From a virus, in IMG/VR virus record IMGVR_UViG_3300008117_000049, positions 1-64,000 of that record: a stretch of 64,000 bases of DNA. One strand, given 5' to 3'. How positions within the stretch are numbered: position 1 is the stretch's first letter; each line of letters begins with the position of its first letter. The position numbers and the translations under genes were made by a program. Of this stretch, positions 48,972 through 55,810 are shown in pieces. Below the pieces are notes generated by a model. It ran no database searches, was not told where the DNA came from, and saw only the letters and a program-made list of their open reading frames with translations.

Positions 48972-49310
48972 GGGGATGACAGGTTTCGACTGGCATCTGA
49001 CATTTGGTGAAGCACGCAGAGACCGCCACGCACTCTTGAAGTGTGGCAAAAACAATAAATGCTGAATCTCGTTCCGCATTCGCTTTAGTAGCGTAAAGAC
49101 TACTTAAGCCCCTAGAAAAGCAGTAGTTCTCGCTGGGCATCTAGGTTTCAAATAAAGAGGACAAACAGCACCACGGTAACAACTCAAACCGTAATTGAGT
49201 TTGACTCAGCGTCTGGTAGGTCAATCGCTGGGAAAACAAGGAAACTACCTAAGCGTGTAGAAGAACAAATTGAATATGTTAGGACAGGGGTTCAATTCCC
49301 CTCATCTCCA
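48972..49310 (+). ncRNA. ssrA: Transfer-messenger RNA (tmRNA)
   Basis: The acceptor stem GGGGATG (48972-48978) pairs with CATCTCC (49303-49309) with one G-T pair; A at 49310 is the discriminator and CCA is not encoded. The T-arm is AGGGG-TTCAATT-CCCCT (ending at 49302). The 5' part GACAGGTTTCGACTGG is the conserved tmRNA start. A tag frame from the GCA at 49046 reads AKTINAESRSAFALVA and stops at TAA (49094-49096). The A-rich interior after the tag has room for pseudoknots. It rescues stalled ribosomes and marks unfinished proteins for proteolysis. Confidence 0.93.
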
Positions 49311-49363
49311 CGCTTGCAGACAAAGGAGCGTAAAGCGGTCTGCCCTGTAAAGGAATTCTCCAA

Positions 49364-49428
49364 GGACTGGCGTAGCCAAGGGCTACGAGTCAACTCTTGA
49401 AGTTGGTAGTGCGAATCTACACAGTCCA
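49364..49428 (+). tRNA. Degenerate tRNA-like element
   Basis: The ends GGACTG and CAGTCC (followed by A) form an acceptor-like stem. Near the 3' end, GTAG-TGCGAAT-CTAC is close to a T-arm (loop TGCGAAT against TTCGAAT). In the middle CAAC-TCTTGAA-GTTG is an anticodon-like arm (TTG in place, with C instead of the usual U at position 33). The D-arm has TAGCCAAG but its loop is very short. At 65 nt it is shorter than a normal tRNA, so it may be a decayed tRNA-Gln or another tRNA mimic. Confidence 0.35.
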
Positions 49429-49450
49429 CAAAAATATTTGTGTGTTGCTA

Positions 49451-49478
49451 TTGACACGATTTCCATTTTGTGTATAAG
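49451..49478 (+). promoter_or_regulatory. Near-consensus sigma70-type promoter of the orphan ncRNA
   Basis: TTGACA (49451-49456) is the exact -35 consensus. After 16 bases comes TATAAG (49473-49478), five of six for the -10. TSS would be near 49485. It is one of the strongest promoter-like sequences in the window. Confidence 0.8.
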
Positions 49479-49514
49479 ATACTAATAACAAGTTCTCGAC
49501 GGAGAACTTGGAGT

Positions 49515-49646
49515 ATGGCTGAACAACTCCAATCTTCAGATGGGGGAGTAAGGCACTATCGGATACTAGCGTATCGCCTTAGCGGGCAAACGGTAGGTGT
49601 GCTGAAAAGCGGGCTAAGAACCGAACTGAATTGGCACTGGTGGTAA
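49515..49646 (+). CDS. Possible 43-aa peptide inside the orphan RNA
   Basis: ATG at 49515 is preceded by GGAGA at 49501-49505 (9-nt spacing) and opens a frame starting MAEQLQSSDGGVRHYRIL and ending LNWHWW. Codons such as AGG, CGG, ATA and GGG are unlike this phage's genes, and the frame runs through all the stems of the RNA. It is more likely incidental, but a dual-function RNA cannot be excluded. Confidence 0.2.
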   Translation: MAEQLQSSDGGVRHYRILAYRLSGQTVGVLKSGLRTELNWHWW

Positions 49647-49669
49647 AACGCAATCCACTTACTCACTAC

Positions 49670-49706
49670 AAAAACCCTTTGGGCACCTCTCGCTCAAGGG
49701 GTTTTT
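49670..49706 (+). terminator. Strong terminator of the orphan RNA
   Basis: AAAAACCCTTTGGGC (49670-49684) pairs with GCTCAAGGGGTTTTT (49692-49706) with two G-T pairs and a 7-nt loop. The A-tract before it and T-tract within the right arm make it effective on both strands. Confidence 0.9.
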
Positions 49707-49823
49707 GACTACTAAGATGGTTAGATAAGATGTTGGCGTATAAATTTGTGTTTAGATTTATACGAGCCAAGTGTCCAAAAAACGATACATTATTATATAA
49801 CTTTTGAAGAAAGACTTAGATAA

Positions 49824-50210
49824 ATGACGGATAACTACCAACCACATTTTGATACTGACTTAGAGCGTGGCAAGGTTGGCGAGAACTTACTCAACACCTT
49901 TCTGGCTGATTTGGCTGGAAATAAGTTTGAGGTGAAGACTGACTATCGTGCTTGGGAAACTGGCAACTTTAGACAGCCAGACGCAATTGACAAAAAACAA
50001 TCTGGAATCAATATCACGGAGGCTGAATACTGGTGCTTTGCTGGGCCTAATGGCAACGGCTTTGTAATGATAAAAACTGATGCTTTGAAAGAAATGCTTA
50101 GAGCAACTGACTATCGTGAAGTACACCAACCAATCTCAACACTTGACACAAACGCCAGTATTGGTAGGCTGGTTCCAGTTTTAGATGTATTGAGAAAGAT
50201 AGGGTTGTGA
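49824..50210 (+). CDS. PD-(D/E)XK nuclease-like protein
   Basis: 128 aa. ERGKVGENLLNTFLADL is a helix like the first one of resolvase/restriction-type nucleases. NKFEVKTDYRAWETGN contains an E-x-K segment, and INITEAEYWCFAGPNG with FVMIKTDALKEM continues the fold. It may resolve or trim DNA. It overlaps the methyltransferase gene as TGATG, so both are coupled, which recalls nuclease-methylase pairs. The assignment is moderate. Confidence 0.5.
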   Translation: MTDNYQPHFDTDLERGKVGENLLNTFLADLAGNKFEVKTDYRAWETGNFRQPDAIDKKQSGINITEAEYWCFAGPNGNGFVMIKTDALKEMLRATDYREVHQPISTLDTNASIGRLVPVLDVLRKIGL

Positions 50211-50803
50211 TGAAAACACTAAAGGGCTACGCTCTGGCTGGTAAAAGCGAGAGCAGAGAGCGTGTAGAAAATGATTTCTATGCAAGAGACCCAAAAGCAC
50301 TAGATATGCTTTTTGCCGCGGAGCCTTTCGGCGACGGCGATTATTTAGAGCCTTGTGCTGGTCAGGGGCACTTGACTAAACGCATCAAAGAACTTGTTCC
50401 AAACGCAAAGGTAGACAGTATTGACATCGTTGATAGGGGGCTTAGTGGGGTTATTGTTGCTGACTTCTTAGAATATGAAACTGAGAAAAGGTATGACTAC
50501 CTAATCACCAATCCGCCTTATTCGCTTGGCAAGGAGTTTGTAGAAAAAGGCCTAACGCTACTAAAAGACGGTGGCAAGATGGCTATGTTTTTAAAGATAC
50601 AGTTTCTAGAGGGCGACAAGCGTAGAGAATTATATAAACAAAATCCGCCCAAATACATCTATGTTTTTACCAAGCGTATGGCTACTTTTAATAATGGAAG
50701 TGAAGTAGATGAAAATGGCAAACGCTGGGCAACCACGATGTGCCACGCTTGGTTTGTGTGGGAAAAGGGATTTACTGGGGAGCCTGTGGTCAGATGGATA
50801 TAG
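50210..50803 (+). CDS. N6-adenine-type DNA methyltransferase
   Basis: 197 aa from the ATG at 50210 overlapping the previous TGA. SAM-binding motif I is LEPCAGQGHLTKRI (~45), and motif IV is YLITNPPYSLGKEF (~98), the NPPY signature of amino-methyltransferases. FLKIQFLEGDKRRELYKQNP and a C-terminal CHAWFVWEKG recall small phage methylases of this kind. There is no target-recognition domain, so it may be non-specific or act on single-stranded or short motifs. A membrane protein gene starts inside its last codons. Confidence 0.8.
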   Translation: MKTLKGYALAGKSESRERVENDFYARDPKALDMLFAAEPFGDGDYLEPCAGQGHLTKRIKELVPNAKVDSIDIVDRGLSGVIVADFLEYETEKRYDYLITNPPYSLGKEFVEKGLTLLKDGGKMAMFLKIQFLEGDKRRELYKQNPPKYIYVFTKRMATFNNGSEVDENGKRWATTMCHAWFVWEKGFTGEPVVRWI

Positions 50804-50937
50804 TCGGTTGGGTGTTGCTTACTTACTTTTTGCTCATTGTATTAGTAAACTTATTCAATATTATTTACATAAAAACCTGTGTTGCCCCAACGCAGAAATC
50901 TATCGATAGAAAGATAAAAAGAAATGCAAGAAGATAG
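50794..50937 (+). CDS. Small single-span membrane protein
   Basis: 47 aa from the ATG at 50794, 10 nt inside the methyltransferase end. Residues ~4-27 (VGWVLLTYFLLIVLVNLFNI) form one transmembrane helix. The C-terminal part is short and very basic (DRKIKRNARR), pointing to the cytoplasm. It overlaps the next gene by 14 nt. Function unknown. Confidence 0.55.
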   Translation: MDIVGWVLLTYFLLIVLVNLFNIIYIKTCVAPTQKSIDRKIKRNARR

Positions 50938-51265
50938 TTTTATTGAAAAGTTTAGGGCTAGTTTGGGCGATAAAGCCGCTACTTTTGGAGCAAGCCTTGA
51001 GAAAGTATTTTCGGCGGAAGAAGAGAAATCTGAAATCATCAACGCCCCTAAAGTAATAGAAACTGAAAAAATTAAAATAGACAAAGAAGACTATGAGATT
51101 TTGGCTGTGAGTTGGAAAGAGTTGGGTGCTAGCCAAGAGCGTGAAGAAATTCGTAGCATTCTTATTCAAGCCCGACGAATAGGAAATCAGCATTCAGATA
51201 AGAAGTTTGTAGATGGAATAAACTTTGTTCTAAATGAACTAGACGAAAGAGACAAAAATAAATAG
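50924..51265 (+). CDS. Hypothetical helical protein
   Basis: 113 aa, overlapping the membrane protein gene. It is charged and helical throughout (EKFRASLGDKAATFGASLEK, SQEREEIRSILIQARRIG). The end FVDGINFVLNELDERDKNK is also helical. It precedes the large methyltransferases with a one-base overlap, so it may be a partner subunit or a regulator. Not recognised. Confidence 0.6.
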   Translation: MQEDSFIEKFRASLGDKAATFGASLEKVFSAEEEKSEIINAPKVIETEKIKIDKEDYEILAVSWKELGASQEREEIRSILIQARRIGNQHSDKKFVDGINFVLNELDERDKNK

Positions 51266-52548
51266 TGAGTAAGTACTATGAAAACGCAGACGCTGTTGTC
51301 TATCACGGGAACTGCCTAGATGAACTAAAGAATTTAGAAGATAACTCCATTGACGCTGTTGTCACCGACCCACCTTATGAACTCGGTTTTATGGGCAAAA
51401 AGTGGGACAACACTGGGATTGCTTACAATGTTGATGTTTGGCGTGAGTGTCTTAGGGTATTGAAACCTGGTGGGCATTTACTAGCCTTTGGTGGCACTAG
51501 GACTTGGCATAGGTTGGCTGTTGCTATTGAGGATGCTGGTTTTGAAGTCAGGGACAGTATTGCTTGGATTTATGGTTCTGGTTTTCCAAAGTCGCACAAC
51601 ATTAGTAAGGCGATAGATAAGTTGCAGGGCGGACAAGTAAAAGTAGGCAAGGCTTTCAAGGTCGCTGGTGAATATGGCGATAGGAATTTGCCTAATCCAA
51701 AAGGTGATAAAGATGATATGCGACATGTGGCAGATACTGATGATGCTAAGAAGTGGGATGGTTGGGGGACAGCGTTAAAACCTGCACATGAACCTATTGT
51801 TGTTGCCCGCAAACCCTTGATTGGGACTGTGGCTGAGAATGTTTTGACTTACGAAACAGGTGGGTTGAACATAGATGCAAGTCGTATAGGAACAGAAACT
51901 ATTAGTGTTCATAATGCGCCTAAAGGCAGTTTTGCTGGTGGTGAACCTGATAGGGGAAGTGATACTGAGAGTTATAGAGAACATGTTGGGCGGTGGCCTG
52001 CAAACATAATCCTAGACGAAACAACAGCCGAACTATTAGATAAACAAAGCGGAGATAGAAAAGGGATGGCTACTCAAAAAAGTTCTGCATTGAAAATTTA
52101 TGGTGGAAATTCGCTGAATGAATCTAAAACAACTTTTCCTGAAATAAGACAAGGTTTCAATGATTCTGGTGGGGCGAGCAGGTTCTTTTATGTTGCTAAA
52201 GCAAATAAGAAAGACCGAAATGAAGGTCTAGATGCACTGCCTGACCATGACTGGAGTGGAGATGGCGCTGCTATTCCTGAAAGAGCAAACAGACCTTTTA
52301 TTCCAAGCAAGAACCACCACCCGACAGTAAAACCTACTTCGCTTATGACATACCTAATCAAGTTAGTGACTCCACCTAACGGAATTGTGCTTGACCCCTT
52401 TACTGGTTCTGGTTCAACAGGTAAGGCTGCGATTAGAAACGGGTTTAGATTTGTTGGAATTGAATTGACGGAAGAATATCTGCCAATCATTACAACCAGA
52501 CTTGACCATGAAATAAAGCAAAAGACCGAGGATTTGTTTAGTGAGTAA
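51265..52548 (+). CDS. Site-specific DNA methyltransferase (beta class, DPPY)
   Basis: 427 aa from GTG. Motif IV is AVVTDPPYELGFMGKKWDN near residue 35, before motif I LDPFTGSGSTGKAAI near residue 383, so motif order is that of beta-class N4-cytosine/N6-adenine enzymes. Between them a target recognition region runs to about 330 and contains one GRWPANIILDE...GGASRFFYVAKANKK block (242-308). It shares the start MSKYYENADAVVYHGNCLDE with the next gene, so the two are tandem paralogues. Confidence 0.9.
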   Translation: MSKYYENADAVVYHGNCLDELKNLEDNSIDAVVTDPPYELGFMGKKWDNTGIAYNVDVWRECLRVLKPGGHLLAFGGTRTWHRLAVAIEDAGFEVRDSIAWIYGSGFPKSHNISKAIDKLQGGQVKVGKAFKVAGEYGDRNLPNPKGDKDDMRHVADTDDAKKWDGWGTALKPAHEPIVVARKPLIGTVAENVLTYETGGLNIDASRIGTETISVHNAPKGSFAGGEPDRGSDTESYREHVGRWPANIILDETTAELLDKQSGDRKGMATQKSSALKIYGGNSLNESKTTFPEIRQGFNDSGGASRFFYVAKANKKDRNEGLDALPDHDWSGDGAAIPERANRPFIPSKNHHPTVKPTSLMTYLIKLVTPPNGIVLDPFTGSGSTGKAAIRNGFRFVGIELTEEYLPIITTRLDHEIKQKTEDLFSE

Positions 52549-54496
52549 ATATTTTGAAGAACCTGAAGCAACTATCTATCACGGAAATTGTCTTGAAGAA
52601 CTAAAAAATTTAGCGGACAACTCGGTTGATGCGATTGTGACTGACCCACCCTATGGGTTGGGAGACTCTGACCCGGACTATATCTTAAACGCCCTTAAGA
52701 TGTGGATTGGCGGAGACAGAGAACACATTCCTGCTGGTAAAGGTTTTATGGGAAAGCAGTGGGATGCTTTTGTTCCACCACCCGCTGTGTGGGATGAGTG
52801 TTTCCGTGTGCTAAAGCCAGGCGGACATATCTTGGTGTTTGCTGGAACAAGAACGCAAGACCTTATGGGATTGTCTGTTCGTATGGCTGGCTTTGAAATT
52901 AGAGATAGCATTGCCTGGATTTATGGTCAGGGCTTTCCTAAGTCGCTAGACATCTCTAAGCAGTTAGACAAGATGGCTGGGGCTGAGCGTGAAGTTATTG
53001 GCTCTGCTGGAAATGCTCCAGATTTACGAGATGTAGGTGCTAAGTCTAAAGAAGCCATTGGCATTGATAAATTGAGTTTTGGTCAAGTTCAAGATGCTGA
53101 ACGCACTGAAATCTTAATTACTGCTCCATCGACAGACGATGCTAAGAAATGGTCTGGCTGGGGAACTGCTTTGAAGCCAGCACTTGAGCCAATCATCGTT
53201 GGTCGTAAGCCGTTGTCTGAAAAGAATGTAGCAAGCAATGTTTTGAAGTGGGGAACTGGTGGTATTAACATTGACGGTTCTCGTATTGGAACCGAGCAAA
53301 GAACTGACACCATTACTGAAAATGGTTTTGGTAACAACTTTATGGATGATGGCTGGGTTCCATCTGGCAAGACTTATGAAAAAACTGTCACTGGTCGTTT
53401 TCCAAGCAATGTAATTCTTCAACACTCAGATGGCTGTACGCCAACTGGACAAGTCATAACTGGGAAAACTTCTGCTGGTAATCGCACTGCTACTTTTGGA
53501 ACGCAAGAGACAGTTTCAGGTGGAGATGGTTCGGGGGGATTTGATGGATACGAGTACAAAATTGAAGTTTACCAATGTGTAGATGGTTGCCCAATCAAAG
53601 AACTCAATGAGCAGAGTGGCGTAACTAAGTCTGGTCAGCCTAGAGAAGACAGGGGAACTGGTGGCATTTGGAGCGAGGGAAATGGAGTTCCTGTTGGTCA
53701 GCAGTATGGAGATGCTGGTGGAGCAAGTCGTTTCTTCCATCAAACAACTCCAGATGAAGAACCTATTGGTCGTTTTCCATCTAATGTTATCTTTGGACAT
53801 ACTGAAGAGTGCGTTGAAGTCGGTGTAGTAGAAGAAAAATACTCAATCAACAAAACAGAAGACTGGACTGGCTTTGGTCAAACAGAGCGACCAGACTATG
53901 TTGGTGAAGATAAAGTTGTAAGCACTTCAGTTTGGGAATGTGCTGATGGTTGTCCTATCAAAGAACTTGATGAACAAACCCAAGGAAAAATTACTCAAGG
54001 TCATTGGGCTCAGACTAAAGTCAGTGGGTATGGTGAGTTTGGTAGTGGCTCTGCTGAATACCTTGGAGTTGGTCGTAAAGCAGAAGAAAAGAGTGGTGGA
54101 GCATCACGCTTTTTCTATCAAGCAAAAGCCAATAAAAAAGACCGAAACGAGGGCCTTGGTGAAGACTTGCCTGAAAAGGGTAAGGTTTATAATGGAAAGT
54201 CTGCTGATAGTGCTGGCAACGCACCGGGTTCAGTAGAAGACAAATTCACTACTCAGCCAGCAAAGAACTTCCACCCAACCGTGAAACCAACGGCTCTTAT
54301 GGAATATCTTGTCAAGTTAGTAACTCCAAAAGGCGGAATTGTGTTAGACCCGTTTTCTGGAAGTGGTTCTACTGGCAAGGCCGCTGTGCGAAATGGCTTC
54401 AAGTTTATTGGAGTGGAAATTACTGAAGAGTATTTGCCTATCTTAAAAGCCAGAGTTGAGTTTGAAATCAACGATAAAAGAAGTAGCCTATTTTAG
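52541..54496 (+). CDS. Site-specific DNA methyltransferase, longer paralogue with duplicated recognition module
   Basis: 651 aa from GTG, overlapping the paralogue by 8 nt. Motif IV is AIVTDPPYGLGDSD (~30) and motif I LDPFSGSGSTGKAAV (~606). The middle differs: two copies of the block that starts GRFPSNVI and ends GGASRFF are present (285-399 and 410-525), each with a D/EGCPIKEL element (VDGCPIKELNEQ and ADGCPIKELDEQ). The paralogue has only one such block. Because the region between the motifs decides target choice, the duplicated module may give a bipartite or dual specificity. Confidence 0.9.
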   Translation: MSKYFEEPEATIYHGNCLEELKNLADNSVDAIVTDPPYGLGDSDPDYILNALKMWIGGDREHIPAGKGFMGKQWDAFVPPPAVWDECFRVLKPGGHILVFAGTRTQDLMGLSVRMAGFEIRDSIAWIYGQGFPKSLDISKQLDKMAGAEREVIGSAGNAPDLRDVGAKSKEAIGIDKLSFGQVQDAERTEILITAPSTDDAKKWSGWGTALKPALEPIIVGRKPLSEKNVASNVLKWGTGGINIDGSRIGTEQRTDTITENGFGNNFMDDGWVPSGKTYEKTVTGRFPSNVILQHSDGCTPTGQVITGKTSAGNRTATFGTQETVSGGDGSGGFDGYEYKIEVYQCVDGCPIKELNEQSGVTKSGQPREDRGTGGIWSEGNGVPVGQQYGDAGGASRFFHQTTPDEEPIGRFPSNVIFGHTEECVEVGVVEEKYSINKTEDWTGFGQTERPDYVGEDKVVSTSVWECADGCPIKELDEQTQGKITQGHWAQTKVSGYGEFGSGSAEYLGVGRKAEEKSGGASRFFYQAKANKKDRNEGLGEDLPEKGKVYNGKSADSAGNAPGSVEDKFTTQPAKNFHPTVKPTALMEYLVKLVTPKGGIVLDPFSGSGSTGKAAVRNGFKFIGVEITEEYLPILKARVEFEINDKRSSLF

Positions 54497-54538
54497 ACAA
54501 ACCTGATACTGTATTACTAATAAAACGAAAGGACATTT

Positions 54539-55810
54539 ATGACAACAATGATGCCACCCGAAAGAAAACTATTTACATCTGAATCTGTTACATCTGGACA
54601 TCCAGACAAGATTTGCGACGCTATCTCAGACGCAATTCTTGATGCTTATTTAGCAGAAGACCCTGAGAGCAGGGTTGCTGTTGAAACTGCTGTCACGACT
54701 GGAGTTGTGTTTGTGTTTGGCGAAGTTTCAAGCCACGCTAGTCCAGACATTCGCCAGATTGTTAGAGACACTATTCGCAAGATTGGCTACACATCTTCGG
54801 ACATTGGCTTTGACGCTGACACCTGTGCTGTCTTTCTAAGCGTTGGTCAGCAATCTTCAGACATCGCTGATGGAGTGAAAATGTCTGTTGAAGCACGCTC
54901 AGGTTCGCACTTGGCAGACGACCAGCAAGGTGCTGGAGACCAAGGAATTATGTTTGGTTATGCTACAGATGAGACAGATGAGATGCTGCCTATGCCAATT
55001 TACTTGGCACACAAGATTGCTCGCATTTTAGAAAAGGCTAGAACTAGCGGGTTTCTACCTTATCTAAGACCTGACGGTAAAACTCAAGTAACTGTGGGTT
55101 ATGACGGCGACATCCCTAAGTCAATTGAAACCATAGTTGTCTCTACACAACACGAGCCAAACATTAGCCAAGATGATATTGAGGAAGACATCATTATGCT
55201 TGTGCTTCCTATTCTCAAGAAAACTGAGTTGGCAATAAACAATCTAAAAATTCTGGTAAATCCAAGTGGTCAATTTATTATTGGTGGTCCAAATGGAGAT
55301 GCTGGGCTTACTGGTCGCAAAATTATTGTTGATACCTATGGTGGTATGGCTAGACACGGTGGTGGAGCCTTTTCTGGTAAAGACCCATCAAAAGTAGATA
55401 GGTCTGCTGCCTATGCTTTGCGTTGGATTGCTAAGAACATAGTTGCTGCGAAACTTGCTCGCAGAGTTGAAATTCAGGTCGCTTATGCGATTGGTAAGGC
55501 TAATCCAGTCGGTCTATACATCAACACTTTTGGAACTGGTGTAGTGAGTGATGACAGATTACTTAGTGCCATTGATAAAGTATTTGACCTTAGACCGTCT
55601 GCTATCATAGACGCTCTCCACCTAAAAGAACCTATTTACAGTAGAACTTCTGCTTACGGACATTTTGGCGACCCAGAACTTCCTTGGGAGAAACTAAATA
55701 GAGTGGTAGAACTAACTGACGCAGTAAAAGAACCTACTCAATCTAATTCTTTCAACTGGGAAGAATTTAGAGAGTGGCTTTATGGTTATGGAAAGGATAA
55801 CAATGACTAA
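54539..55810 (+). CDS. metK: S-adenosylmethionine synthetase
   Basis: 423 aa, similar in length to cellular Met[21 protein letters not shown] contains the ATP/Mg site (GHPDK), followed by [12 protein letters not shown] and the phosphate loop [19 protein letters not shown]. It makes SAM from methionine and ATP. It is located directly after three SAM-using DNA methyltransferases, which suggests it fuels them or replaces SAM lost by host shutdown. A SAM synthetase is a rare auxiliary metabolic gene in phages. It overlaps the next small gene by 8 nt. Confidence 0.95.

Follow-up and report, generated by a model that had tools for sequence, protein, structure and literature searches.

In 2010, Weinberg et al. 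(PMC2864571) reported the manA RNA as a candidate riboswitch, found in marine metagenomes, in T4-like cyanophages, and in two gamma-proteobacteria. Rfam files the family as cis-regulatory, and the literature that we found names no ligand for it. A transcriptome analysis of the Bifidobacterium megaplasmid pMP7017 identified manA together with a highly transcribed tmRNA (PMC10832533). GOLLD and ROOL are structured RNAs of phages and prophages, often located near tRNA islands and of unknown function (PMC12286853); GOLLD is often longer than 800 nt, and both form RNA cages (PMC12286853).

Here we analyze a structured RNA encoded in 64,000 nucleotides of viral DNA (the window), which is part of a virus record of 135,336 bp (IMGVR_UViG_3300008117_000049). 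The DNA polymerase of this virus is closest to that of Actinomycetia phage DSL-LC01 (67.8% identity) and to those of large Microbacterium phages, and an actinobacterial host is therefore likely.

A manA RNA in the form of a separate gene

A preliminary description, made from the sequence alone, had presented this RNA as an orphan and possibly as a new class. A search against Rfam instead returned a significant match to a known family, the outcome that the description itself had named as refuting it: manA (RF01745) matched over the full length of the model, with a score above the gathering score, and the consensus helices are backed by covariation among close relatives. With E values up to 1, the search of positions 49300 to 49850 returned manA and no further family, which bears out the statement that the RNA matches neither tmRNA, 6S RNA, RNase P RNA, nor a known riboswitch. 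The 5' untranslated region (5'UTR) placement annotated for manA is not what we observed here, as this copy has its own promoter and terminator and its relatives lie between tRNAs. Since placement is an annotation outside the covariance model, it does not affect family membership. The window copy is thus a manA RNA by family, and the label "cis-regulator" does not fit it or its close relatives. It shows a known family in a form that has received little description, namely, a separate RNA gene linked to tRNA and tmRNA neighborhoods on mobile elements, and is not categorically new. The features of the locus are as follows.

48972-49313, + strand: tmRNA gene with tag AESRSAFALVA (RF00023, 133.4 bits; ARAGORN)
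49364-49429, + strand: tRNA-like cloverleaf between tmRNA and manA (fold of -26.2 kcal/mol)
49451-49456, + strand: -35 hexamer TTGACA (sequence, scan, and promoter comparison with relatives)
49475-49480, + strand: -10 hexamer TAAGAT, spacer of 18 (matches the TAnnnT position in promoter-bearing relatives)
49487-49707, + strand: predicted transcript, manA RNA plus terminator, its start placed from the promoter spacing of relatives and the fold
49489-49510, + strand: P1, 5' hairpin of 9 bp with loop GACG (two-sided compensatory changes in 7 of 9 pairs)
49492-49669, + strand: manA RNA, RF01745, model positions 1 to 192 of 192 (64.9 bits; gathering score, 55.2; E value, 3e-14)
49511-49664, + strand: domain closed by near-invariant GAGUA (49511-49515) and UACUC (49660-49664) (98.3% of cells paired in 24 relatives)
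49518-49554, + strand: P2 arm with invariant internal loop GCUGAA.AA/UAAGGC (alignment)
49556-49596, + strand: P3, three-way arm with two hairpins (two-sided changes in 6 of 6 pairs of the outer helix)
49599-49637, + strand: P4 arm (two-sided changes in 4 of 7 outer pairs)
49639-49659, + strand: P5 hairpin GGUGG-UAAAACGCAAU-CCACU, the family signature GGUA...AAUCC (Rfam match, alignment)
49669-49707, + strand: intrinsic terminator hairpin of 16 bp with a loop of 7 (scan, fold)

Promoters, terminators, and open reading frames (ORFs) were called by simple consensus rules. On the + strand between 49451 and 49707, TTGACA is followed by an 18-nt spacer, TAAGAT, a folded RNA of about 180 nt, and the terminator hairpin, whose U-run pairs with an A-run. 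From these signals, 49487 to 49707 (+) is predicted to be a discrete transcription unit. The promoter claimed in the preliminary description was recovered with its TTGACA in place, but the -10 element proposed there (TATAAG after 16 nt) gives way to TAAGAT, which lies 2 bases downstream and is shared by relatives. Relatives with a promoter carry a TAnnnT hexamer 5 to 6 nt 5' of a conserved AAC that opens the RNA, and this spacing places the start at about 49487. The strong terminator also held, with 16 bp rather than 15 bp, as did the deviating base composition (GC content of 48%, compared to 41% for the window).

Fold and covariation

The 225-nt RNA folds at -84.6 kcal/mol, compared to -58.4 ± 4.5 kcal/mol for shuffled sequences (z = -5.8), and none of 200 shuffles reached an equally low energy. 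The many-stemmed RNA proposed earlier is thus supported both by a fold 5.8 standard deviations below shuffles and by helices that covary in relatives. Two structural details did not survive: only five pairs of the supposed 7-bp closing helix are conserved, and the suggested two or more competing pairings are not evident, as the minimum-free-energy (MFE) structure equals the centroid and both keep the RNA and the terminator together.

Among 24 aligned relatives of the window's type (type A, defined below), 89.7% of the cells were paired, compared to 78.4% after shuffling and 33 to 44% when the pairing was slid; a slide of a single column halved the number of paired cells. Two-sided changes were found in 25 of 58 pairs, and cells with such changes numbered 155, compared to 48 in shuffled alignments. 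The covariation and its contrast with the slid and shuffled controls therefore indicate that the manA RNA has been selected as RNA.

Relatives of the window copy

We distinguish three types of manA, namely, type A (that of the window), type B (marine), and type C (small pelagic). Pattern scans of viral contigs yielded 42 stretches in one scan and at least 120 in another. In the set of 42, 33 viral records matched manA at an E value of <0.001, as did Rhodococcus phage Francesca. The manA cutoff of the covariance model was passed by 24 of 46 records, and four pattern matches (L004, L019, L026, and L042) were rejected as manA by the model. The window copy scores much lower than the marine copies tested (65 versus 150 to 197 bits), and the Rfam model appears to have been trained mainly on the marine type. 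Clear manA RNAs were also observed at 41 to 56 bits, mostly under 55.2 (L010, L012, L035, L039, L044, and L192).

Type A loci were collected by a conserved-core pattern, and those of related phages are not independent. Flanks were classed by eye on printed sequences; the 3' side was also read in this way because the terminator script overlooks hairpins with internal loops. In the 26 nonredundant loci (window included), the RNA opens 5 to 6 nt past a -10 element (15 loci) or immediately past a tRNA or tRNA-like element (11 loci). On the 3' side, a hairpin or a tRNA lies within about 12 nt in all 26; the hairpin varies in sequence between loci, and in five a tRNA takes its place. The RNA body of one relative (L007) is 96% identical to that of the window, with flanks at background level. 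Divergent copies found via the polymerase gene (L279 to L281) have the same gene anatomy. At 23 type A loci, the ORFs that follow the RNA, called heuristically, group into 17 clusters.

Two relatives lie in tRNA arrays of named elements. In phage Francesca, manA occupies an unannotated gap 4 nt past tRNA-Met and 1 nt before tRNA-Lys. In pMP7017, manA lies 18 nt past tRNA-Phe with a terminator behind it, and the surrounding tRNA array also includes a tmRNA; six Bifidobacterium megaplasmids of this kind carry manA. This plasmid copy was reached through its published accession, and BLASTN with the window RNA matched no plasmid. As a check for a cellular origin, a DNA pattern specific to type A was run and matched only 5 of 84,980 species' genomes; the covariance model found manA in none of the three whole genomes tested among these matches, and two further matches are in Pseudomonas.

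tRNA and tmRNA neighborhood

The reported proximity to tmRNA was confirmed by both Rfam and ARAGORN. The tag of this tmRNA ends in ALVA, while those of most relatives here end in ALAA. The cloverleaf between tmRNA and manA has an anticodon loop of 5 nt and a D stem that is overlong (7 bp, with a loop of 3 nt), and it was called by neither ARAGORN (default settings) nor Rfam. Three relatives (L007, L029, and L036) have, just 5' of manA and ending at its start, a reduced tRNA-like element with an acceptor stem, a single hairpin, a T arm, and little else, again with no call by ARAGORN (default settings) or Rfam. Such elements upstream of manA are possibly processing signals or decoys.

In type A, 16 of 26 loci have a tRNA no more than 60 nt from manA, compared to 1.6 expected under random placement (maximum of 7 in 2,000 simulations); in type B, 8 of 100 do, compared to 0.4 expected. 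tmRNA is present in 12 type A records and lies within 1.3 kb of manA in 11 of them. Among relatives chosen through their polymerase and no shorter than 70 kb, four have both manA and tmRNA, one has manA alone, one has tmRNA alone, and ten have neither (Fisher P value = 0.013, from a small count and with kinship ignored). The two genes are 40 to 44 kb apart in two of the four records with both. DSL-LC01, the closest named polymerase relative, and the Microbacterium and Arthrobacter relatives tested contain neither manA nor tmRNA.

Farther downstream in the window (50207 to 55810), several DNA methyltransferase-like genes adjoin an S-adenosylmethionine synthetase gene (54539 to 55810), which suggests a phage DNA modification block with its own cofactor supply.

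Marine and pelagic copies

Promoters with at least 10 of 12 consensus bases were found directly 5' of 58 of 95 type B copies, compared to 3 of 475 shuffled sequences. On the 3' side of 99 type B copies, we observed a coding sequence (CDS) within 70 nt and without a terminator or tRNA in 42, a recurrent U-run hairpin in 23, other terminators in 16, tRNAs in 6, and none of these in 12. The downstream CDSs form 24 clusters and include purL (P-SSM2), gp32 (P-HM2), and the transaldolase gene (P-RSM6). In P-TIM68, the next annotated gene after manA is on the opposite strand, and three cyanophage copies (L121, L064, and L088) abut the next tRNA. Our literature search turned up no mapping of cyanophage transcript ends.

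The recurrent hairpin, conserved and of the form GACCTAAGATGCAACTC...GGGCAGATGGTC with a U-run, lies 9 to 17 nt past manA in L059, L101, L114, L130, and 19 other marine loci. It was seen only after manA in these loci, where it precedes several different genes, and no Rfam family reached its gathering score on it in the loci tested. Annotated hypothetical proteins overlie manA in P-HM2, S-SSM5, and P-SSM4 (L173, 1558 to 1732; L174, 1505 to 1711; L177, 1541 to 1714); they are probably not real genes.

In pelagic type C, a start codon directly follows manA in six of seven copies. A divergent manA type (L008, L013, L014, L024, L031, and L040), to which the Rfam model gives low scores or no match, sits immediately 5' of the start codon of a frame of 80 to 95 amino acids and is likely a leader form. 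A cis role is therefore possible for part of type B and for type C.

A proposed free RNA in phage infection

We propose, with a probability of roughly 0.6, that this manA family RNA gene produces a free RNA with a trans-acting role in infection, most likely as part of a translation support set. The family assignment, the structure, the separate gene boundaries, and the tRNA/tmRNA neighborhood are well supported by the sequence comparisons, whereas stable accumulation, action in trans, and translation as the target are inferred. The window copy would be transcribed from its sigma-70-type promoter into an RNA of about 220 nt that stops at the intrinsic terminator. In tRNA arrays, manA would be released from the array transcript by the abutting tRNA ends, presumably through RNase P at the downstream tRNA and tRNA 3'-end processing upstream. 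Either route would yield a free, compact RNA working in trans, most likely alongside tmRNA and tRNAs in support of phage translation, a role suggested by the tRNA/tmRNA neighborhood. This closeness to tRNAs may merely reflect a common noncoding island. The leader-like type B (42 of 99) and type C (6 of 7) copies and the lack of both manA and tmRNA in DSL-LC01 count against a free RNA. The preliminary description is supported in that this is a structured noncoding RNA with its own promoter and terminator, near the tmRNA, and a plausible trans-acting phage RNA. More tentatively, manA as a whole may be an RNA of mobile elements rather than a riboswitch, one that cooperates in trans with tmRNA and phage-encoded tRNAs to sustain translation in the infected cell; under this view, cyanophage copies that look like leaders would represent this free RNA borrowing the transcript of a neighboring gene.

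If the RNA instead acts in trans on something besides translation, for example by sequestering a host RNA-binding protein or RNA polymerase as a decoy, its gene anatomy would be identical, and the near-consensus promoters of cyanophage copies suggest high output; proximity to tRNAs would arise only because phages keep RNA genes there. However, nothing found speaks positively for such a partner, and the co-occurrence with tmRNA at 40 to 44 kb would be unexplained, albeit with n = 2; we regard this reading as unlikely. For antisense action on genes of the window, the longest complementarity was 12 nt, compared to 10 to 15 nt for shuffled sequences, and so did not exceed chance.

It also seems distinctly unlikely that the RNA is a cis-acting, terminator-type riboswitch that senses a metabolite and gates read-through into the genes from 49824. 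The Rfam filing and the original proposal (PMC2864571) favor such a role, as do the terminator followed by same-strand genes (encoding an unknown protein and a DNA methyltransferase) and the close position of a CDS behind about half of the cyanophage copies. However, the loci do not share a common 3' hairpin sequence, and five have a tRNA in its place; the downstream ORFs are diverse in both type A and cyanophage loci; and, for copies that sit between tRNAs, there is no mRNA on which to act. Moreover, the MFE and centroid structures both keep manA and its terminator together. In these static folds, no aptamer strand pairs alternatively with the terminator. The riboswitch idea is weakened for type A.

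A passive structural spacer or 5' stabilizer, protecting adjacent tRNAs and mRNAs or aiding their processing, would fit the positions beside tRNAs in arrays and ahead of many different genes. It is nonetheless improbable, since the conserved unpaired core (GCUGAA.AA, UAAGGC, and the P5 loop) exceeds the needs of a spacer and copies flanked by a promoter and a terminator of their own shield nothing downstream.

A small protein gene at 49515 to 49646 was rejected and has a negligible probability: its 43 codons are open in the window and its ATG is invariant across the 24 aligned relatives, yet most of these stop at once (ATG GCT GAA TAA), L279 and L280 have GTG or a displaced start, and the U/C change by which the stop arises or disappears covaries with an A/G partner (columns 40/65) and is therefore a helix change rather than a codon change. 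The frame shows no codon-level conservation in relatives, in agreement with the earlier view of the region as noncoding.

Comparison with known systems

If manA is a free RNA beside tmRNA and tRNAs on phages and megaplasmids, screens for a manA ligand target the wrong mechanism, and expression, deletion, and partner pulldown would be the fitting experiments. The type A anatomy argues that manA deserves testing as a trans-acting RNA, for which isolated cyanophages, Rhodococcus phage Francesca, and the Bifidobacterium megaplasmid offer host systems.

Compared to manA as originally described (PMC2864571), the window copy has a full-length model match and shares the helices and the GGUA...AAUCC P5 hairpin, but the former is a 5'UTR element and the latter a self-contained gene beside tmRNA, in a phage whose closest relatives have Actinomycetes as hosts. 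The pMP7017 copy resembles that of the window in family, tRNA/tmRNA neighborhood, and possession of its own terminator; it differs in being plasmid borne, in scoring 41.5 bits (below the Rfam cutoff), and in being preceded by tRNA-Phe rather than a promoter, and it was read as a riboswitch in its paper (PMC10832533). tmRNA (RF00023) is a neighbor here and a frequent companion in related phages, but it is a separate gene, and manA has neither a tRNA-like domain nor a tag reading frame. Finally, manA resembles GOLLD and ROOL in setting but differs from them in fold and has no sequence or Rfam relation to them; as a free RNA, it would join them near phage tRNA islands and yet be small enough for routine genetics.
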